Assembly (NCBI GenBank): GCA_035461765.1 | Contig: DATHUY010000053.1 | Span: 1-64,000 of the forward strand | DNA length: 64,000 nucleotides | Reading direction: 5' to 3' | DNA from: Longimicrobiales bacterium | Lineage (GTDB): Bacteria > Gemmatimonadota > Gemmatimonadetes > Longimicrobiales > RSA9 | Shown here: positions 54,818-64,000 of the stretch, in pieces | How positions within the stretch are numbered: position 1 is the first letter of the stretch | Layout: the number at the start of each line of letters is the position of its first letter | Position numbers and translations under genes: made by a program | The notes under the pieces: generated by a model | What the model was told of the DNA's origin: nothing | Database searches by the model: none | What the model saw: the letters and a program-made list of their open reading frames with translations, nothing else

Positions 54818-56044
54818 TCAGGTCCGGATTGCCGACGTGATGCTGCGGAGCTCGCCGTCGCGCAGCCGGCTGTGGGTCGGGAGCGTGAGGAGATCGCGAA
54901 CGAGCGCATCTGCGCCGGCTGTTCCGGCAGGGTTTCCGGCGGCCAGTCTGGCGCGTATGGCCGGAAGCTCGGCGAGCGTCGTGGGATAGGAAGGTGCGAC
55001 GCCCAGCTGGTGGAGCTGCCGCACGAGGGCGGCGGCGCGTCCGGGTATCCGCACGGGCAGACGCAGGTATCCGGCGTCGCCGCCAGCCGGTATGCGGATC
55101 GTGACCACGTCCGCGCCGAGACGGTCGATGATCGAGGCTGCGCGTTCCCGGCGGGCAGCCGCTTCGCGCCGAGCGGCCTCGCGTGTAGCCAGCACCAGCG
55201 CGGCCACGCTGCGCCCGGGACCGCAGGCCGGGGACGGCTCTCGATAGTGGGTTTCGCCCAATTCGAGCCATGGCAGTGATGCGGGAAAATGATAGAGCGA
55301 AGGCCGTCCGAGGGCCCACTGCGCGGTCGCCGCGACGAGCGTGCGGGCCGTGGAGAGCGCTCCGTTCGGAGGCAGATCCGCAACAGGCGGCGCTCCGTCG
55401 CCGCGCCACAGGAGGGCACCGCCGGCGCCCCCCGTCCACCCCTTGCCCCGGCCGAAGCTGAGCACGCTCAGTCGACCGTGCGCACCGAGCGGCCGGTCGC
55501 CCCACGTGGCGCCATGGCCCTGCGCGGCGTCCTCGATGACCAGCGCGCCATAGGGGCGGGCGAGCATTTCTATGGCGTCCCAGTCCACGGGGACGCCGTA
55601 GAGCGGCGACACCACGACCACGCCTGCGCCGTTTTTCAGTGCCGCTTCCAGTGAGGCGGGATCGGGCGCGAGCGTCGCGGGATCGATGTCGTACAGGGCG
55701 ACTGTGGCCTCCGCGCCGACGGCGGCCGTTGCGACGTCGTAGCACGTGAAGGCCGGGAGCGCGACGATCCGGCGCGCACCCGTCGCAGCCAGGGCCGTGC
55801 GGATCGCGAGCTGAAGCGCATGCGTGCCGCTGTCGGTGAGGAGCGCGCCGTCGGCGTGGAAGTCACGGACCAGCAGCGACCGAAGCCGGGCGCGCGGGTC
55901 CGCGCCGGGGATGACGGCGGAGCCGACGGCGCGGGCGAGCGCGCCCGGTGACAGAGGCGCATACACGGGCAGCTGATGGCGCCAGCCATGCGAGCCGGCC
56001 TCCGCGTCGAGCTCCCGCTGTCCGGCCGTGAGCGTCGGAATCAC
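54818..56044 (-). CDS. DegT/DnrJ/EryC1/StrS-type PLP aminotransferase (copy 2)
   Basis: 408 residues from GTG 56044, overlapping the FemAB stop (GTGA); the open frame extends much further but only in a shadow of the FemAB gene. PLP features: VIEDAAQGHGATWG (E171-D172) and the probable Schiff-base lysine K201 in SFGRGKGWTGG. It resembles copy 1 in the ALPAFTCYDV and PLTCKV strand region. It probably installs an amine on a keto sugar. It follows FemAB and deacetylase genes. Confidence 0.85.
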   Translation of the reverse strand: MIPTLTAGQRELDAEAGSHGWRHQLPVYAPLSPGALARAVGSAVIPGADPRARLRSLLVRDFHADGALLTDSGTHALQLAIRTALAATGARRIVALPAFTCYDVATAAVGAEATVALYDIDPATLAPDPASLEAALKNGAGVVVVSPLYGVPVDWDAIEMLARPYGALVIEDAAQGHGATWGDRPLGAHGRLSVLSFGRGKGWTGGAGGALLWRGDGAPPVADLPPNGALSTARTLVAATAQWALGRPSLYHFPASLPWLELGETHYREPSPACGPGRSVAALVLATREAARREAAARRERAASIIDRLGADVVTIRIPAGGDAGYLRLPVRIPGRAAALVRQLHQLGVAPSYPTTLAELPAIRARLAAGNPAGTAGADALVRDLLTLPTHSRLRDGELRSITSAIRT

Positions 56045-57087
56045 CACCAGGGGAGTCGGCTGGCGAGCGGAGGACCGATCCGGTTGGCGACGGGGAGCGG
56101 AAGGCGCTGCCAGGCGGAGGAGGCCGCGCGCACGAGGCGTGACGGTGATGAGGACGTGCGCGGCCGGGCCGTCCACTCGAGCCAGCGGAGCGGAACGTCG
56201 CGGCCGCCCCATTGTTTCTTGAAGCGGTGCGTGCTCGCGCCGGGCGTGCTGCGTCCGAAATTGAAGACGCGCACACCGCGCCCGATCATCTCCTCCATGA
56301 AGCTCCAGTACAGGAGCATGTTCGGAGCGAGCCGGTTGTAGTCGCGGATGCACGATGCCCAGGTGATCTCGAACTCGCCCTTCCATATGAAGCCGGCGGC
56401 CGCTCCGATCGGGCGTCCCTGGTGATAGATGGCGCCGAACACGACCTCCGGGAACGTCGCGGCCACGGCCTCGAAGAAGCGGCGCGAGTACACCGGCGTG
56501 CCCAGGTCCCGCATGTTGCGCGCGAACACGGTATAGAACGCATCCAGCTGGTCCGGTCCGACCCGGAACGTCATGCCTTCCTTCTGCGGCCGCCGGATCT
56601 GGCTGCGCACCTTGCTCGGGAACTGCGACCACAGCGCCTCCGGCGTGTCCGGCAGGTCGAGCAGAACCATCACCTTCTTCTCATCCGCCGCCGCACGGCT
56701 CGGCAGCGGAGGGCGGCATCGGACCTGGAGTACGCCGGCGCCCGACCGCTGCGCCTCCGCCACCGCGGCGTCCATGAGGACGCGCTGGGCCGCCGGCGTT
56801 CCGAGCGGACCGCCATAGTTGACGTAGGGCATGGAGATCAGCGAGTGGCCGAGCAGCGGTGTGCGGACCCGTACGAGAGGCAGGACGCCCTGCCAGGCCC
56901 CGTCCATGGTCACGGCTACAAGCGGCAGGTACTCACGGCCGAGCACGTCTTCGACAATGCCGCGCCAGCCGGAAAGCTGACAGAACGTACTCTCCGGCGC
57001 TTCCCGGACGAACGCGTCCCAGTGCGTGTCGTCGCGGTCCGCGCGCGCGACCCGCAACTGTACAGGGTGGGTGGTGACGGTGCTCAT
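56041..57087 (-). CDS. FemAB-type GNAT acyltransferase (copy 2)
   Basis: 348 residues from ATG 57087. Features of the FemAB group are visible: TFCQLSGWRGIVED, FPSKVRSQIRRPQKEG (a basic signature like that of exosortase-associated FemAB proteins), GTPVYSRRFFEAVAA and NFGRSTPGASTHRFKKQWGG at the C-terminal substrate loop. It likely moves an acyl or aminoacyl group to an amine. It starts two bases after the deacetylase stop and overlaps the aminotransferase by GTGA. Confidence 0.83.
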   Translation of the reverse strand: MSTVTTHPVQLRVARADRDDTHWDAFVREAPESTFCQLSGWRGIVEDVLGREYLPLVAVTMDGAWQGVLPLVRVRTPLLGHSLISMPYVNYGGPLGTPAAQRVLMDAAVAEAQRSGAGVLQVRCRPPLPSRAAADEKKVMVLLDLPDTPEALWSQFPSKVRSQIRRPQKEGMTFRVGPDQLDAFYTVFARNMRDLGTPVYSRRFFEAVAATFPEVVFGAIYHQGRPIGAAAGFIWKGEFEITWASCIRDYNRLAPNMLLYWSFMEEMIGRGVRVFNFGRSTPGASTHRFKKQWGGRDVPLRWLEWTARPRTSSSPSRLVRAASSAWQRLPLPVANRIGPPLASRLPWW

Positions 57088-57089
57088 GG

Positions 57090-57944
57090 CTACTGCGTTG
57101 CAGGCGCCAGCAGATCGAGCGTTTCCGCGATCGGCTGAAATCTGTAGGTTCCGAGCAGACGTTCGAGCCGCGGCGCCGTCCGACGCAGCCCGCCATAGTG
57201 GCGAACCCGCGTGAGCGGCGGCACCTTCACGCGCGGCTGGTCGACGTCGAGCTCCCATGGATGGATGTAGAATGTAGCCGGGGCGTTCCGCTGCTCCGCC
57301 TGCGTGAACGCCGCCTGCGTCAGTGCATACGGCAGCAGCCGGAAATAGCCTCCGCCTCCCGCCGGCAGGTTCGTGCTTCCCACCCGCACCGTGGCCGGAG
57401 GGACCTCCGCCAGCCGGCCGCTCGGGCGTTCGATCCAGTGCGTGTCCCGCGCTGCCGACGGGTAGCCGTACCCCCGGCGCCGGATCGGGAACAGACTCGA
57501 ATCGTAGCGATGCCCCTCTTCAATCAGGATGTCCAGCGCCCACTCGGTTCCCGGGATGATCGAAAAGCTCGGGGCCCGGAAGCCATACACCTGCTGTCCC
57601 GTCAGGTCCTCGAGCAGCGCACGCGTCCGCCGGATCGACTGCCGGAACTGCTCAGGTGTCTGTGTCGGTACGCGGGCGTGATCCCAACCGTGCGAGGCGA
57701 TCTCGTGGCCTCCCGACGCCACCTCCCGCACCAGCTCCGGCTGCCGCTCGGCGACCCAGCCCAGTATAAAAAAAGTGCCGCGCGCGCCATGTCGCGCCAT
57801 CAGGCTCAACAGCGCACGCGTGCTCCCCGCAACGCGGCTCGGCTGGTCGGCCCAGCCCGTGCGCGGGACCGCCCGCTCCAGCGCCGTGACCTGGAAATGC
57901 TCTTCCACGTCGATCGTGAAGTGATGAACCGCCACCAGCTCCAT
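57090..57944 (-). CDS. Polysaccharide deacetylase, exosortase/PEP-CTERM-locus type (copy 2)
   Basis: 284 residues starting HHFTIDVEEHFQVTAL, the hallmark of the exosortase-associated deacetylase subfamily, in which the second Asp of the usual TFDDG motif is replaced (D12, E14). Metal histidines are H85 and H89 in SHGWDH, then GFRAPSFSI. RGYGYPSAARDTHWIE and FYIHPWELD also fit. It would remove acetyl groups from an amino sugar. It opens the minus-strand operon that continues with FemAB and aminotransferase; 178 bases separate it from the phosphatase gene. Confidence 0.9.
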   Translation of the reverse strand: MELVAVHHFTIDVEEHFQVTALERAVPRTGWADQPSRVAGSTRALLSLMARHGARGTFFILGWVAERQPELVREVASGGHEIASHGWDHARVPTQTPEQFRQSIRRTRALLEDLTGQQVYGFRAPSFSIIPGTEWALDILIEEGHRYDSSLFPIRRRGYGYPSAARDTHWIERPSGRLAEVPPATVRVGSTNLPAGGGGYFRLLPYALTQAAFTQAEQRNAPATFYIHPWELDVDQPRVKVPPLTRVRHYGGLRRTAPRLERLLGTYRFQPIAETLDLLAPATQ

Positions 57945-58710: not shown

Positions 58711-59053
58711 ATCCTGTTCATCCCGGGAAAGCGCAGCGGCCGCCGTTGGTCGCTGCCCAGTCAATGAACGATGCACATACGCAGGCGCCATATCAACCGG
58801 CGGTGGCGCGGGAACGCTGATTCCGCGAGCTGGGCGGACCGGGATGCTCGCATGCCCTCCTATGTTGTGCTTCCGCAACACCGGCGCGGTCGGGTGGCGT
58901 GTCGGCAGATAGTTCCAGCCGTCGTAACCTGCTGCGCGACAACGTGTGTCGCGCCTTGCGTCAGGCAGGCGGGACAGGGCACGCGACCTGCGCCACCCGC
59001 GGCCAGCGAACAAGTCGGATATCGAACCGTCCCGACCCACGAGGAACACATAC
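58711..59053. other. 343-base divergent region
   Basis: Space between the phosphatase (minus) and the receptor-like gene (plus). It must hold divergent promoters, but I could not point to convincing hexamers. A short inverted repeat, TGTTG ... CAACA, lies near 58862-58884. The plus-strand gene has a good GAGGAA ribosome-binding site at 59041-59046. Confidence 0.4.
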
Positions 59054-61987
59054 ATGCTGCCACACTGGCGAAGTGCGCCCCGCCCTGGTCTGCTTGCCGT
59101 GGTCCTGACGGTGCTCGTCTGCGCGCCGCTCCAGGCCCAGACGGCGACGACGGGAGCCGTGGACGGTCGCGTCGTGGATGCTTCGGGGGCACCTGTTCTG
59201 GACGCCATAGTGACGATTCGTGACGCGTCCGGCCTCGAGAAAGAGACCGACAGTGGTCGGCGCGGTGTGTTCTCGTTCGGCTACCTGGCGCCCGGCCTGT
59301 ATCAGCTTCGTGTCGAGCAGATCGGATATGCTCCGGGACTGGTCACAGGTATTCAGGTGCGCCCGGGTCGGACGCGCCAGGTCGAGGTCCGGCTGCCGGC
59401 GGCGGCACCGGCAGACGTCCAGCCCCGCGTCGTTCCGCACCAGGGTGCGGTGCAGCCGGCCACGTTGTATGGCGGAAGCCAGTGGCTGCCGTCGTTTGCC
59501 GTCCGGTCCGTGCCGTCCGCGACGCGCGAGCCGGCCGATCTCCTGCGCATGTCCTCGATCGCGGATGACCGCTGGATCGCGGAAGGGCTGCCCGCGAGCC
59601 TGTCCGTCCTCCGGATCGATGGCATTCCGTTCCGCCCCGCCGCGCACCCGCAGCTTCCTGATGCGGGATCCGCCTTCACCCTGACCGGCATCGAATCCGC
59701 CGAGCTGGTGACGAACGGTGTGGACGTCGACTGGAGTGGCGCGGCAGCCTCCTATCTGAGCACACAGTCGCGCCACGGCGCCTCAGCCGCAGCGGTGCAC
59801 GCCGCCGCGTTCTGGTCCGGCGACGCGCTGCCTTCGGGCATCGACGCCGGACCCCTGTCACATACCGACGTTCAGGGAGGCGTCGTCGTGCGGGGACCGT
59901 TCTTCGCCGACGGGAACCAGTTCAGTCTGGGCATCGAAGCGCGACGGCTGGAGACGCCGGTCTCCGCGGCGTGGGCCGACACCGAGGCAGCGGCCACGCT
60001 GGCAGAGGCCGATCCGGAGCTCGATCTGGAGTCGTACCGCAGGCCGGCCGTACTGAGCAGCAATGCGGCGTCGGCGTTCGCACGCGCCGACTGGTCCGTC
60101 GGTCGCAGCCACCGCGTCGAGCTGAGCGCGCATTTCGCCGCGCAGCCGGACGCCGAAACAGTGGACGAACGGGGGAGCCGGCTGGCCTGGCAGGGCAGCG
60201 ATCTCGTCGCGGGCGCCGCGCTGAGATCGGCGTTCGGCGCCTCCGTCGTCAACGAGCTGCGCGTGGCCGCCACGCGCAGTGCGCGCGAACGGCCTGCTCT
60301 CGATCAGGGCATCCCCACCCGACTCGTTTCCGACGACCTCGCGTTCGGGGCCGCGACGGCATCGCTGTCCTCGGCGGAAGACCTGATCGTCCACGTCAGT
60401 GATGCCGTCCGTGTGGCATCCGGTGCGCATACGTTCGAGGTGGGCGCCGCGGCGGCTCTGGGCATGTACAGCTACGAGCACCGGGAGAACGCGGACGGCG
60501 CGTACCTGTTCGGCGACGTATCCGATTTCGCAGCTGACTCGGGCGTCTTCATGCGCGCGGAGGGCGGCGCGCCGCTCGCGGAATGGACCTCACCGACACT
60601 GTCGGTGTTCGCGCAGGACCGGTGGCGTGCACTCTCCGGTCTCGAGGTGATGCTCGGCGTGCGCGTCGATCGCGAATCGCTGCCCGAGTCGGACGTGAAC
60701 CGGGACGATGAGTGGTTCCAGCTCACGGGCCTCGCGAACAATGACATCGGGAGCACGAGCCTCCGCATCAGTCCACGCGCCGGCATCACATGGGACGTGA
60801 ACGGATCGCGCGACTGGGTGGTCGAGGCGGGTGGCGGGCTGTACTACGATCGTGTGGACCCGCAGCTGCTCGCGCAGTGGCAGGTCGATGATGGCAGCGC
60901 GCTCATGCGGCGCGTGAACGGCTCGCTGAGCTGGCCGGATGATTCCGCGGGCGTGACCGCGCCACGGCTCACCATGCTCTCCTCCGACTTCGATGCGCCG
61001 CGCACGGCACGACTGGGCGCGGGTGTGACCCGCCGGCTCGCGGCCGGTACGTCCCTTTCGGTATCGGCGGTCGCGCGTCGCACGGAGAACCTGCCGAGAC
61101 AGAGCGATCTGAATCTCCTGCCGCTGCCCGGCGCGCGGGACCAGTACGGAAGGGAAGTGTACGGCGTGCTGGAACAGCACGGCGCACTGCTGGCCGCCGC
61201 GCCCGCATCCGGCCGCCGGTTCCCGGTCTACGATGAGGTCGCGCTCATCAGCGACGACGGCTGGTCGGAATACATCGGGGTCACGATCGGCGTCGACCGC
61301 GAATTGATGGACGGGTATGGCTTCCTGCTGCGCTACACGTTCGGACGCACGACCGACAACTGGGTCGACGCTGCGCGGGGCCGCTGGGGCCACTCCGGTG
61401 CCCCCGCCGTCGGTGGTGACCCGGACTGGGAGGAAGGCACGTCCGATTTCGATGTGCCGCACCGTGGCACGGCGGCTGTCGTGCTCGAGGCTCCGTTCGG
61501 CGTGCAGGTCTCCGGCGCTTACCGGTTTCAGAGCGGGCGCCCGTTCACGCCCGGCTTCCGCCCGGGTGTCGACGCCGATGCGGGAGGCTCGGGGACCGAT
61601 CCGGCGTTCGTGGATGGGGCCCTCGCCGGGATGTCGGACATCATCGGCGAGTGGGACTGTCTGCGCGACGCCGAGGACGCGTTCGTGGAACGCAACTCAT
61701 GCCGTGCAGCGGCCGTCCACGCACTCGATATCGGTGCGGCTCTCACGGTGCTCCGGTGGGGCGGAGCCGCGGCCGCGATCACGCTCGATGCATTCAACGT
61801 GTTCGACAGCTGGCATGAGCAGCCGGATGCTGCTCTCTACCTCATCGACCCGGCCGGCACCCTCACGTCCGATCCCGTCGCCCGTACCGTCGACGTTCCG
61901 TTGCTCGTCAACTCCGAATTCGGCAAGCCGCTCGCGCGGCGCCATTCCGGCCGCCGGCTTCGTCTCGGTCTTTCGCTGAACTGGTAA
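59054..61987 (+). CDS. TonB-receptor-like outer-membrane protein with carboxypeptidase-regulatory domain
   Basis: 977 residues from ATG 59054 (a longer in-frame start is disfavoured by the clear signal peptide, cut after LQAQ). Residues 30-115 form a CarboxypepD_reg-like beta sandwich (TTGAVDGRVVDASGAPV, GVFSFGYLAPGLYQLRV). A degenerate plug-like segment follows and the remaining about 700 residues are a barrel, ending in LRLGLSLNW with the terminal aromatic of outer-membrane barrels. Such proteins take up or sense ligands at the outer membrane. The plug is weak, so it may be a non-transport relative. It is four bases before the repeat lipoprotein, with which it may work. Confidence 0.72.
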   Translation: MLPHWRSAPRPGLLAVVLTVLVCAPLQAQTATTGAVDGRVVDASGAPVLDAIVTIRDASGLEKETDSGRRGVFSFGYLAPGLYQLRVEQIGYAPGLVTGIQVRPGRTRQVEVRLPAAAPADVQPRVVPHQGAVQPATLYGGSQWLPSFAVRSVPSATREPADLLRMSSIADDRWIAEGLPASLSVLRIDGIPFRPAAHPQLPDAGSAFTLTGIESAELVTNGVDVDWSGAAASYLSTQSRHGASAAAVHAAAFWSGDALPSGIDAGPLSHTDVQGGVVVRGPFFADGNQFSLGIEARRLETPVSAAWADTEAAATLAEADPELDLESYRRPAVLSSNAASAFARADWSVGRSHRVELSAHFAAQPDAETVDERGSRLAWQGSDLVAGAALRSAFGASVVNELRVAATRSARERPALDQGIPTRLVSDDLAFGAATASLSSAEDLIVHVSDAVRVASGAHTFEVGAAAALGMYSYEHRENADGAYLFGDVSDFAADSGVFMRAEGGAPLAEWTSPTLSVFAQDRWRALSGLEVMLGVRVDRESLPESDVNRDDEWFQLTGLANNDIGSTSLRISPRAGITWDVNGSRDWVVEAGGGLYYDRVDPQLLAQWQVDDGSALMRRVNGSLSWPDDSAGVTAPRLTMLSSDFDAPRTARLGAGVTRRLAAGTSLSVSAVARRTENLPRQSDLNLLPLPGARDQYGREVYGVLEQHGALLAAAPASGRRFPVYDEVALISDDGWSEYIGVTIGVDRELMDGYGFLLRYTFGRTTDNWVDAARGRWGHSGAPAVGGDPDWEEGTSDFDVPHRGTAAVVLEAPFGVQVSGAYRFQSGRPFTPGFRPGVDADAGGSGTDPAFVDGALAGMSDIIGEWDCLRDAEDAFVERNSCRAAAVHALDIGAALTVLRWGGAAAAITLDAFNVFDSWHEQPDAALYLIDPAGTLTSDPVARTVDVPLLVNSEFGKPLARRHSGRRLRLGLSLNW

Positions 61988-61991
61988 TCGA

Positions 61992-64000
61992 ATGCGTAGC
62001 AAAGTGCTGTCCCTGCTGTCCGTGGTGGCTCTTACCGCCCTCGCCGCCTGCAAAGACGGTGATCCGACGTCGATCGACGAACGCACCGGCGCGGTGGCCG
62101 GCGGCGCGTTCATCGACCGTGACCTCAATGGCGCATTCACCGCCGGTGACGCTCCCGCGGGCGGCGTCGTTGTCGGCCTGCTCCTGGAGGCGACCGGTGA
62201 CACCATGGAAACGGCGATCACGGAAGCGGATGGCTCCTTCCTGATCGATCGGGTGGCGATCGGGCAGTATCGGCTCGTCGCCCGGCGCGGCGCGACGCTC
62301 GGCGATACGGTCGAGGTGCTTGCCATAAGCAATGCCACCTTCTCCGTGACGGCGGCGGACACGGTCGTGCGCGTGATTCCGCTCGGGTATCCCACGGTCA
62401 CCGTGGCCGCCGCCCGCGCTCTGCCTGCCGGCCGCCGCGTCATGGTCACGGGCATCGCGCTCAACACCTGGACCGCGTTTGCCGATTCGACCGTGCACCT
62501 GCGCGACGCGTCCGGATCCATCCGCGCTGTGCGCACATCGCCCTCACCGCTCCAGGCGGGTGACAGCATCCGGATCTTCGGCACCACCGCGCTCGACAAC
62601 GGGCAGGCCGTCCTGGCCGATGCCTCCGTGCGCCTGCTGTCCCCGGCCGTCGGCGTTCCCGCGCCCGACTCCGTGGGAACCGGCGTTGCCGCAACGGCCG
62701 ATGGCGGCGCTCGCGCCGATGGTCAGGTCCGCATCGCGGGCGCGACGATCCTCGACACCACTTCGGTCGCGGGTGACCGGGTGCTGGGCGTCGACGACGG
62801 ATCCGGCCGCCTCGAGGTGGTCCTCGACCGCAATGTGCAGTTCGACGCCGGCCCCTGGGTGCCCGGCGCCAGATTTCATGGCTCCGGCGTGCTGGTGCCG
62901 GATACTGCGGGCGGCTGGCAGCTGAAGCCCCGCCACCGCACGGAGGCCTCCGTCACGTTCCCCAGCATGACCATCGCCGCCGCGCGCGCCACCACTGCGG
63001 GTCTGCGGGTCGTCGTCGAAGGGATTGCTCTGAACGGCTGGTTCGCGTTCGCCGACTCCACCGTACATATCGCCGACGCGACGGGCGCGATCCGGGGCGT
63101 CAGGGTGCTGGGCTTCGTCGGCCCCGGTGACTCGATCCGACTCAGCGGTACCGTGGCCACGCGCAACGGTCAGCCCGTGCTCTCGAATGCTACCGTTGCC
63201 CTCCTGAGCGCCGCGGTCGGACTGCCGGCTCTCGATTCGGTGTCCACCTCCACCGCCGCTTCCGCGCAGGGCGGCGTTCGCGATGCGGGCCAGGTCCGCA
63301 TCGGCGGGTCCATCACGGGCACGCAGAACCTCCCGAGCGGCGATGTCATCCTCACCGTCAATGACGGCTCCGGCGCCGTGCAGGTCCTCTTCGACAGGGA
63401 CATCGCCTTCAACCCGGGGCCGTACCAGCCCGGTGCACTGCTGCGCGCATCGGGCGTGCTCGTCCCGACCGGAACCGGGACCTGGCAGCTCAAGCCACGC
63501 AGCCGCGATGACGCCACCGCGTTCTACCCGACCGTCACCGTCGCGGGCGCGCGCGCGCTCCAGCCCGGTCAGACCGCGTACGTCGCGGGGATGGCGCTCA
63601 ACGGCACGAACACGTTTGGCGACAGCACCGTGCACGTGCAGGATGCTTCCGGGGCCATCCGCTTCACCACGGTCCCCGGCGCGCCCCCGATCCTGGCCGG
63701 GTACGCCGTCACGATCCTCGGCACGGCCGGTGTCCTCAACGGCACCCCGATCATGAGAGCGTCATCGGTCTCGCAGGTGAGCGTGGGAACACTCCCCGCC
63801 CCGGATTCAGTCTCCACCGCCACGGCCGCTTCCGCCCAGGGCGGCACCCGGGACGCCGGCCAGGTGGCGGTTTCCGGAACCATCGTGGCCGCCGTCACCG
63901 TGGGCAGCGACATCCTCCTGGCCATCACGGACGGGACCGGCACCCTCGAGGTGGTGCTCGATGCGGCGGTGGGATTCAACAGCGCCGCGTATCAGGTCGG
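61992..64000 (+). CDS. Repeat lipoprotein, cut by right edge (at least 669 residues)
   Basis: The frame is open from ATG 61992 to the window end, which I checked codon by codon. The signal MRSKVLSLLSVVALTALAAC has a lipobox ending at C20. A Cna-B/SdrD_B-like domain follows (AFIDRDLNGAFTAGD, ADGSFLIDRVAIGQYRL). Then three repeats of about 190 residues begin (62391, 62961, 63528), each with a first half (AFADSTVH-type strand, DASGAIR) and a second half (GQVRIAG, EVVLDR, WQLKPR). The pattern suggests tandem OB-fold- or Ig-like modules. It should be exported and anchored at the outer membrane. Its spacing after the barrel gene, four bases, makes a pair likely. Confidence 0.75.
   Translation, partial: MRSKVLSLLSVVALTALAACKDGDPTSIDERTGAVAGGAFIDRDLNGAFTAGDAPAGGVVVGLLLEATGDTMETAITEADGSFLIDRVAIGQYRLVARRGATLGDTVEVLAISNATFSVTAADTVVRVIPLGYPTVTVAAARALPAGRRVMVTGIALNTWTAFADSTVHLRDASGSIRAVRTSPSPLQAGDSIRIFGTTALDNGQAVLADASVRLLSPAVGVPAPDSVGTGVAATADGGARADGQVRIAGATILDTTSVAGDRVLGVDDGSGRLEVVLDRNVQFDAGPWVPGARFHGSGVLVPDTAGGWQLKPRHRTEASVTFPSMTIAAARATTAGLRVVVEGIALNGWFAFADSTVHIADATGAIRGVRVLGFVGPGDSIRLSGTVATRNGQPVLSNATVALLSAAVGLPALDSVSTSTAASAQGGVRDAGQVRIGGSITGTQNLPSGDVILTVNDGSGAVQVLFDRDIAFNPGPYQPGALLRASGVLVPTGTGTWQLKPRSRDDATAFYPTVTVAGARALQPGQTAYVAGMALNGTNTFGDSTVHVQDASGAIRFTTVPGAPPILAGYAVTILGTAGVLNGTPIMRASSVSQVSVGTLPAPDSVSTATAASAQGGTRDAGQVAVSGTIVAAVTVGSDILLAITDGTGTLEVVLDAAVGFNSAAYQV
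62391..62960 (+). repeat. Repeat module 1 of the lipoprotein
   Basis: 190 codons, from PTVTVAAARAL to the conserved WQLKPRHR region. The first half contains GIALNTWTAFADSTVHLRDA, the second QVRIAGATILDTTSV and EVVLDRNVQFDAGP. It is the least matched of the three but clearly homologous. Confidence 0.7.
62961..63527 (+). repeat. Repeat module 2 of the lipoprotein
   Basis: 189 codons, starting PSMTIAAARATTAG. It shows GIALNGWFAFADSTVHIADA, then STAASAQGGVRDAGQVRIGG, VLFDRDIAFNPGPYQPG and WQLKPRSR, aligning with modules 1 and 3. Confidence 0.75.
63528..64000 (+). repeat. Repeat module 3 of the lipoprotein (partial)
   Basis: At least 157 codons, starting PTVTVAGARALQPGQ, with GMALNGTNTFGDSTVHVQDA, STATAASAQGGTRDAGQVAV and EVVLDAAVGFNSAAYQV at the edge. 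The module is cut by the window end. Confidence 0.72.

Follow-up and report, generated by a model that had tools for sequence, protein, structure and literature searches.

A TonB-dependent barrel and its adjoining OB-fold lipoprotein in Gemmatimonadota: a candidate polymer-capture pair

What does a TonB-dependent barrel do together with a repeat-containing lipoprotein encoded directly behind it? The question is raised by the 3' end of the window, here meaning the whole stretch of 64,000 nucleotides analysed from contig DATHUY010000053.1 (C53) of a Longimicrobiales bacterium. The barrel gene (59054..61987, + strand, 977 aa) lies in an open reading frame that begins at 58946, and the ATG at 59054 yields a signal peptide. 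The lipoprotein gene (61992..64000, + strand) starts with an ATG at 61992, leaving four bases between the two genes, as an earlier note on this DNA had it. The contig runs 5.6 kb past the window, so the 3' end of the lipoprotein gene, which that note left to be obtained, was recovered: the final 97 bases lie outside the window, the stop is at C53:64097 and the complete protein has 701 residues.

The barrel protein combines a signal peptide, a CarboxypepD_reg domain, a plug and a barrel, and is predicted to be an Oar-like TonB-dependent transporter. Its Pfam matches, OMP_b-brl_4 (5.8e-41) and CarboxypepD_reg (6.4e-16), are both above the curated cut-offs (PF25183, 141.2 bits vs 30; PF13620, 58.9 bits vs 32.3). 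We take this combination of a CarboxypepD domain and an Oar-like barrel to link the family to Myxococcus xanthus Oar. The CarboxypepD_reg domain (residues 72-150 of the long reading frame; 59159..59395, + strand) corresponds to the regulatory N-terminal domain that had been proposed. The plug had been described as weak, which is true of its sequence, as no match to the Plug family was obtained in the barrel at E<=1 in Pfam, but not of the structural model (pLDDT 82.9, pTM 0.84). The model has the fold of a TonB-dependent transporter and matches complete transporters with the plug region included, among them Fiu (Z 36.9 over 549 residues); as modelled, the protein is a full TonB-dependent transporter whose plug is weak by sequence only. 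SusC structures are also among the fold matches. SusC carries an N-terminal CarboxypepD-like domain, and the window barrel resembles SusC/SusD systems in having both this domain and a plug.

The lipoprotein begins with a signal peptide and the lipobox LAAC (61992..62051, + strand), the cysteine of which, residue 20, is invariant in 24 aligned homologues. The domain structure suggested before, a Cna-B-like domain followed by modules of about 190 residues, is borne out by Pfam matches of the 669 residues in the window to SdrD_B (4.3e-5) and to the OB-fold family tRNA_anti-codon (1.2e-12), by the structural model (pLDDT 87.6), built on the first 669 of the 701 residues, and by repeat comparison. 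The Cna-B/SdrD_B-type domain (residues ~31-134; 62082..62393, + strand) aligns with SdrD (10ps) over 104 residues (Z 13.6, rmsd 2.7). It is followed on the + strand by module 1 (62391..62960), module 2 (62961..63530) and module 3 (63531..64000, continuing to contig position 64094), which share 46-55% pairwise identity. Modules 1 and 3 are delimited by the model and the repeat comparison, module 2 by Pfam as well. Each module consists of two OB folds in the predicted structure, a feature that goes beyond the earlier note. Foldseek places the model closest to tandem OB proteins that bind DNA, namely the p204 HIN-dsDNA domain, CST, RPA and BRCA2. The OB fold is widespread, and likeness to HIN or RPA proves no function. 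A basic charge, as a sign of DNA binding, is absent from the window lipoprotein (pI 5.3) and mixed across the larger of the two classes of loci defined below (4.1-10.2 in class A).

The pair was found to be a conserved unit. The lipoprotein search fetched 57 loci, with some weak matches left out of the set (G282:C98, G096:C2:5-157). Three of the loci fetched (L041, L103, L104) were excluded as they matched by the Cna-B domain alone and not by the lipoprotein profile. Among the remaining Gemmatimonadota homologues 52 of 54 adjoin a barrel, in each case on the same strand (41 loci in class A, 11 in class B); the two scored as lipoproteins without a barrel are L105, a 153-residue fragment, and L026, at a contig end. 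In the reverse survey, with the barrel alignment as query, 21 of the 22 closest named Gemmatimonadota barrels carry a lipoprotein, and the remaining one is at a contig edge. The intergenic gaps range from -4 to +80 nt with a median of 2 (n=35 measured), and adjacency extends across the phylum at ~30-47% identity. The co-occurrence that the earlier note proposed to survey is thus present, and barrel-less homologues, its refuting case, did not emerge as a pattern. In class A, which forms one clade and includes the window, the barrel precedes the lipoprotein, and in class B the lipoproteins precede the barrel. Searching with the class A profile recovers the lipoproteins of class B, with E values from 1e-28 to 1e-56. 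The literature searched yielded no paper on this pair in Gemmatimonadota.

The sister class is associated with nucleases. Endonuclease I is encoded 11 times in the 298 genomes, 10 of these genes adjoin class B pairs, and one class B lipoprotein (L095:8971-10866) matches DUF5689 (52.7 bits vs 28.6), a family (PF18942) to which the 669 residues of the window lipoprotein gave no match at E<=1. Among 14 Bacteroidota loci with DUF5689 pairs, 11 have a secreted EEP-type protein next to the barrel (three Pfam-confirmed). Locus L157 encodes a fusion of a DUF5689 domain with a nuclease, adjacent to a homologous barrel. In Riemerella anatipestifer, RA0C_RS04915 and RA0C_RS04920 encode a CarboxypepD barrel and a DUF5689 protein in one operon; according to the accessible portion of the report, this pair is required for natural transformation and the adjacency is conserved in Flavobacteriaceae (PMC8459023). 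The description of the window pair as a possibly unrecognised type was therefore too strong, as an analogous CarboxypepD barrel adjoining a lipoprotein/DUF5689 partner has been published. Class A itself could not be assigned to the Riemerella type. The profile comparison of class A with Bacteroidota DUF5689 lipoproteins was non-significant (E 0.014, probability 3%), and hhalign of the barrels, in which Bacteroidota pairs stood in for the Riemerella proteins, aligned 72 columns covering the CarboxypepD domain only. Because homology is non-significant, these pairs serve as the nearest studied analogue, with class B as the bridge. Riemerella-type pairs have a DUF5017/choice-of-anchor J tail, whereas the window lipoprotein has a Cna-B stalk and repeats. 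The portion of the report seen mentions neither a sigma-54 nor an exopolysaccharide link (PMC8459023), unlike what is found for class A.

Class A lies in an exopolysaccharide setting. A sigma-54-like -24/-12 site, GGGCACGCGACCTGCG (58977..58992, + strand), has its first base 77 nt 5' of the barrel ATG. It scores 13.4 of 16.4 and alone reaches p=0.05 against its own shuffled upstream DNA. In the 37 of 41 class A loci with sufficient upstream DNA, such a site was found 5' of the barrel in 25, compared to 29 of 315 control genes, at a cut-off of 13.4 that is the window's own score and was set after the fact; a threshold-free comparison gave p=4e-11, and kinship of the loci inflates both results. 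The sigma-54 gene is present, and this promoter-like sequence suggests that the pair may be under sigma-54 control. XrtA markers lie close by at 56041-57944 (TIGR03006, 337.8 bits vs 276.2; TIGR03019, 269 vs 260.35), while the exosortase of this genome is on contig C59. An XrtA deacetylase was found within 10 kb of the pair in 13 genomes. Among 96 class A neighbour proteins (97 were chosen and L073:2-3100 was left out) were XrtA deacetylase (7), FemAB/XrtA (3), PF00534 glycosyltransferases (6), low-molecular-weight phosphatase (4) and PEP-CTERM proteins (4). TIGR03006 exceeds its cut-off in 19 of the 38 genomes with class A pairs and in 51 of 260 others (Fisher p=1.3e-4; the class A and class B genome lists were assembled by hand). 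The locus thus resembles XrtA/PEP-CTERM exopolysaccharide loci in neighbourhood, sigma-54-like promoter and nearby PEP-CTERM gene, but differs in its TonB barrel-lipoprotein pair, which is not mentioned for such loci in the part of the source available (PMC9850573).

Our leading reading, to which we give slightly less than an even chance, is that the pair is a TonB-driven polymer-capture machine within a matrix programme, with nucleic acid as the likeliest ligand. It is based on predicted folds, conserved adjacency, clade structure, the promoter-like site, gene neighbourhoods and the nuclease association of the sister class. The lipoprotein would be anchored by its lipidated cysteine and raised off the membrane by the Cna-B-type stalk, and its six OB folds would grip an extended extracellular polymer. 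The polymer, or pieces of it, would be passed to the adjacent Oar-like barrel, which would drive it across the outer membrane using TonB energy. The class A pair would be turned on by sigma-54 alongside exopolysaccharide/PEP-CTERM matrix genes, and being switched on with them it would work in the cell's own biofilm. Matrix DNA or oligonucleotides would be the likeliest ligand, with polysaccharide a close second. That the two proteins form a physical complex is our inference, as are surface exposure, transport direction, ligand and sigma-54 control. Against this reading count the lack of a consistently basic charge in the lipoproteins, the non-significant Bacteroidota homology, the ubiquity of the OB fold and L026, as well as the class A neighbours, in which no nuclease was seen among the 25 most frequent of 74 matched families (96 proteins).

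The same machine may instead handle exopolysaccharide made by the cell itself, whole or as a fragment, which the barrel would retrieve, sense or retain on the surface; we hold this as a tentative but serious possibility. OB folds are able to bind sugars, the class A neighbours are exopolysaccharide genes and TIGR03006 is enriched in class A genomes, although half of these have no match above its cut-off. The nearest OB structures bind nucleic acid, however, and the sister class and the Bacteroidota analogues pair with nucleases rather than glycan enzymes.

It is improbable that the barrel exports matrix proteins, whether PEP-CTERM or others, in the way of Oar and that the lipoprotein receives them at the surface. 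Oar is needed, with the Ton system, for secretion of the protease PopC in M. xanthus, and the available part of that source mentions no OB-fold lipoprotein partner such as the window barrel has (PMC6434023). The barrels share sigma-54-like sites with the PEP-CTERM genes of the same loci, comparable to the RpoN-dependent pepA (PMC9850573, as far as its accessible text goes), and a PEP-CTERM gene at C53:64866 (TIGR02595, 22.6 vs 16) starts 769 bp past the lipoprotein. The exporter reading was downgraded since no exosortase was found in 23 of the 38 class A genomes, which speaks against strict co-occurrence, even though PF09721 is enriched (15/38 vs 40/260), and OB folds point to a non-protein ligand.

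An independent adhesin behind an iron-type receptor, or a chance neighbourhood, is very unlikely. Cna-B domains are frequent in adhesins, and L026, from the window's own genome, has no upstream barrel, but phylum-wide adjacency with near-zero gaps rules out chance. That the pair is a regular glycan importer of the SusC/SusD type whose SusD has degenerated is hardly credible: the operon layout, the CarboxypepD domain and the SusC fold matches agree with it, and SusC/SusD, BtuB/BtuG and TbpA/TbpB likewise join a TonB-dependent barrel and a cognate lipoprotein in one operon, but SusD has a helical fold, whereas the window lipoprotein, made of tandem OB and Cna-B domains, is largely beta and its helices are all short. 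SusD membership is ruled out by the absence of any SusD family match at E<=1 in Pfam, in line with the SusD-free SusC/SusD-like layout first described; the VIA-align matches listed for the model contain no SusD-like or helical lipoprotein, which is not counted as a test.

The ligands of many TonB-dependent transporters are unknown. For this family, the OB-fold partner, the nucleases of the sister class and the transformation phenotype of the analogue together yield a concrete and cheaply testable hypothesis of nucleic-acid capture and make the outer-membrane step of pilus-free DNA uptake testable; the pair appears distantly analogous to systems for taking up DNA or polymers. A bolder version, which we consider rather unlikely, is that at least two phyla share a kind of outer-membrane transporter for nucleic acids in which a string of OB folds replaces SusD as the lid of the barrel, class B feeding on DNA cut by a secreted Endonuclease I and class A recruited to the sigma-54 matrix programme for binding or recycling biofilm DNA. 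If so, the OB-lid transporter would take the place of the pilus in DNA uptake that proceeds without pili. To our knowledge, the outer-membrane steps of the XrtA-type matrix system are poorly known, and the sigma-54/exopolysaccharide link of class A would give that system an outer-membrane component. Both this setting and the tie of the sister class to a secreted nuclease were additions to what had been read from the window before.

The TonB-dependent, Oar-like barrel and the lipoprotein at the right end of the window are encoded by adjacent genes on the + strand. The barrel gene (59054-61987, ATG start) matches the Pfam families OMP_b-brl_4 (5.8e-41) and CarboxypepD_reg (6.4e-16), and the lipoprotein gene begins with the ATG at 61992, four bases downstream as the earlier note had it. 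The window covers positions 1-64000 of a contig (C53) of 69592 nt in full, belonging to a 4.68 Mb draft genome. The 3' end of the lipoprotein gene, which the earlier note lacked, was obtained from this same contig: the stop lies beyond the window at 64097, giving a product of 701 aa with matches to SdrD_B (4.3e-5) and the OB fold PF01336 (1.2e-12). The lipobox is LAAC with Cys20, a cysteine that is invariant in 24 aligned sequences.

The lipoprotein model (mean pLDDT 87.6, 18 sequences) covers the 669 residues encoded in the window. It shows a Cna-B-type domain and, after it, a recurring β pattern read as six OB folds, so that each of the three 190-residue modules would hold two; the modules are 46-55% identical to one another. 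The best Foldseek matches are DNA-binding tandem OB proteins (p204 HIN with dsDNA, human CST with POT1/TPP1, RPA, BRCA2 and RADX), with low TM-scores that we attribute to the modules being strung out. In VIA-align, residues 26-134 align with the SdrD B domain (Z 13.6) and residues 411-514 with the anticodon-binding OB domains of Asp/Asn-tRNA synthetases (Z about 12-13). The barrel model (pLDDT 82.9, pTM 0.84, 19 sequences) is matched by Foldseek to the TonB-dependent transporters YddB, FusA and SusC, and by VIA-align to Fiu (Z 36.9 over 549 residues). These matches extend across both plug and barrel, so the plug initially described as weak is a genuine one of diverged sequence.

The lipoprotein was found in 15/61 relatives and in 49 of 298 genomes drawn from the phylum, and the barrel's close relatives from named genomes are without exception Gemmatimonadota. 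Co-occurrence of the two genes in this phylum, which had been left to a survey, was followed in 57 loci fetched from the lipoprotein searches, every ORF being scanned with a lipoprotein (A1) and a barrel (A3) profile. In 41 loci (class A, including the window pair) the barrel ends immediately 5' of the lipoprotein on the same strand, the gap ranging from -4 to +80 nt with a median of 2 (35 class A loci), and in 11 (class B) one or two lipoproteins lie immediately 5' of the barrel. Two lipoproteins, in L026 and L105, have no adjoining barrel; that of L105 is a fragment. L026 holds a second copy in the window genome (L026:17991-19304; contig C131 from 21012 on), with no barrel upstream and running into the contig end. 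The loci L041, L103 and L104 were discarded, having been found via the Cna-B domain alone and holding no such lipoprotein. A barrel search over named genomes gave 22 close Gemmatimonadota loci with an adjoining lipoprotein in 21, L116 stopping at a contig end; the two adjacency counts are not independent, because the loci of both searches apparently overlap in many genomes. Beside eight barrels of greater divergence (Tannerellaceae, Acidobacteria, Neomarinimicrobiota), the class A profile detected no lipoprotein. The 40 class A barrels in a 66-barrel tree are set apart from the rest by a branch with full SH-aLRT support.

Pairs of a TonB barrel and its cognate lipoprotein are already known, and a barrel and DUF5689 pair has been published for the Flavobacteriaceae by authors who found barrel homologues in that family only (PMC8459023). 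The proposal of an unrecognised type of system goes too far in this respect; literature searches returned nothing on the Gemmatimonadota pairs. New are the conservation of the pair across the phylum, in two classes, and the predicted tandem OB-fold architecture of the partner lipoprotein. The SusC/SusD-like layout without SusD holds: the unit resembles transporter-lipoprotein pairs with a different lipoprotein fold, and the pair probably works in the manner of such a unit.

Also new is that class B is tied to Endonuclease I (PF04231), present in 11/298 genomes. Seven of these genes are no more than about 7 kb away from class B pairs that the lipoprotein search had turned up, three further ones proved on fetching to adjoin class B-type lipoproteins and barrels, and the eleventh is a partial match on a 4 kb contig. 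The class A profile recovers class B lipoproteins with E-values of 1e-28 to 1e-56, and the class B lipoprotein of L095 matches DUF5689 (PF18942) over the cut-off (52.7 bits). In the class B loci L095, L101, L102 and L107 two different barrels flank the two lipoproteins, one per side, and in the tree the outer ones fall close to those of Bacteroidota.

DUF5689 occurs in 75/148 Bacteroidota genomes. Among 14 loci with strong matches (L140-L153), a barrel-sized gene of 880-957 aa lies directly 5' in 11, one small gene intervenes in two, and L146 differs. A protein with FYN or FLN, x, and ENL or ENF near its start adjoins the barrel in 11/14, and the three of these that were scanned (L145, L150, L152) are Exo_endo_phos_3 nucleases (Pfam). 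In L157 (2215-8029), a class B-type OMP_b-brl_4 barrel is separated by one small lipoprotein-like gene from a DUF5689-Exo_endo_phos nuclease fusion with a Por secretion tail. One barrel and DUF5689 pair of Riemerella anatipestifer is reported as required for natural transformation, in a paper whose available text leaves the Exo_endo_phos_3-type neighbour gene unmentioned (PMC8459023); tonB mutations also reduce transformation in this species, an effect ascribed in part to iron by the authors (PMC8383284). Based on these relatives (class B and Bacteroidota) and on the modelled fold, a nucleic acid may be put first as ligand, by a small margin over polysaccharide. This reading does not draw on any direct homology between the window pair and the pair needed for transformation: profile comparison of the lipoproteins gives E 0.014 and a probability of 3%, and in the barrels the CarboxypepD domain alone aligns. 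Charge is of no help as a pointer to the ligand, with a pI of 5.3 for the window lipoprotein and 4.1 to 10.2 across class A.

A polysaccharide ligand comes a close second, favoured by the genes that surround the class A pairs themselves. Upstream of the window pair, on the opposite strand, lie an LMW phosphatase, an XrtA polysaccharide deacetylase (TIGR03006) and a FemAB/XrtA protein (TIGR03019), the latter two over cut-off. By eye, positions 1-58719 of the window hold mostly polysaccharide biosynthesis genes, with these XrtA markers near the right end; the genome's exosortase lies elsewhere, on contig C59. Downstream, just past the window, an HpsJ-like membrane protein (a weak match at E 8e-4 that stays under the cut-off) forms one unit with a PEP-CTERM protein (C53:64361-65576; L002:6361-7576). 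A scan of 96 class A neighbour proteins found XrtA deacetylase (7), FemAB/XrtA (3), glycosyltransferase PF00534 (6), LMW phosphatase (4) and PEP-CTERM (4); the 25 families listed, out of 74 matched, include no nuclease. Clusters of histidine kinases, response regulators, bactofilin-like, DUF4390 and VanZ proteins (51 proteins) had been left out beforehand. In 13 genomes an over-cut-off TIGR03006 match is no further than 10 kb from the lipoprotein, in five of them directly 3' of it; TIGR03006 is present over cut-off in 19/38 class A genomes vs 51/260 others (p=1.3e-4); exosortase PF09721 is present in 15/38 vs 40/260 (p=1.1e-3). The tie of class A to exopolysaccharide loci, likewise new, is thus real, but neither universal nor strictly coupled to protein sorting. 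Export of PEP-CTERM proteins by the barrel, modelled on Oar and PopC (PMC6434023), would be a less likely third reading. The pair is ruled out as SusC/SusD because its lipoprotein has another fold.

Class A also appears tied to a sigma-54-like -24/-12 site (TGGCAY N5 YTGCA), a further new feature, found 60-147 nt 5' of the barrel ATG in most loci. With the score of the window's own candidate (GGGCACGCGACCTGCG, 58977-58992; p=0.05 taken alone) as cut-off and a span of 160 nt before the ATG, 25/37 class A barrels carry a site vs 29/315 control genes from these loci, and 0/37 on the reverse complement; a cut-off-free rank test gives p=4e-11. None of nine class B operons tested reached the cut-off. 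The site-bearing control genes include three whose product looks, by eye, to end in a PEP-CTERM-like tail (L070:12656, L083:1536, L090:11546) and two from the deacetylase cluster (L067:4163, L078:5438). The HpsJ-like/PEP-CTERM unit has its own sigma-54-like site, TGGCCCGCCATGTGCA, 97 nt 5' of its first gene. In Aquincola, a PEP-CTERM gene has been shown to be under RpoN control through TGGCAC/CTGCTT (PMC9850573), and a sigma-54 gene is present in the window genome. Histidine kinases occur in 17 of the 57 loci, response regulators in 16, bactofilin-like proteins in 10 and VanZ in 16. Beside the pair in class A loci such as L075, L078, L083, L090, L092 and L097 there is repeatedly a bactofilin-like protein together with a histidine kinase and an NtrC-type response regulator, which may supply an activator of the sigma-54-like promoter.
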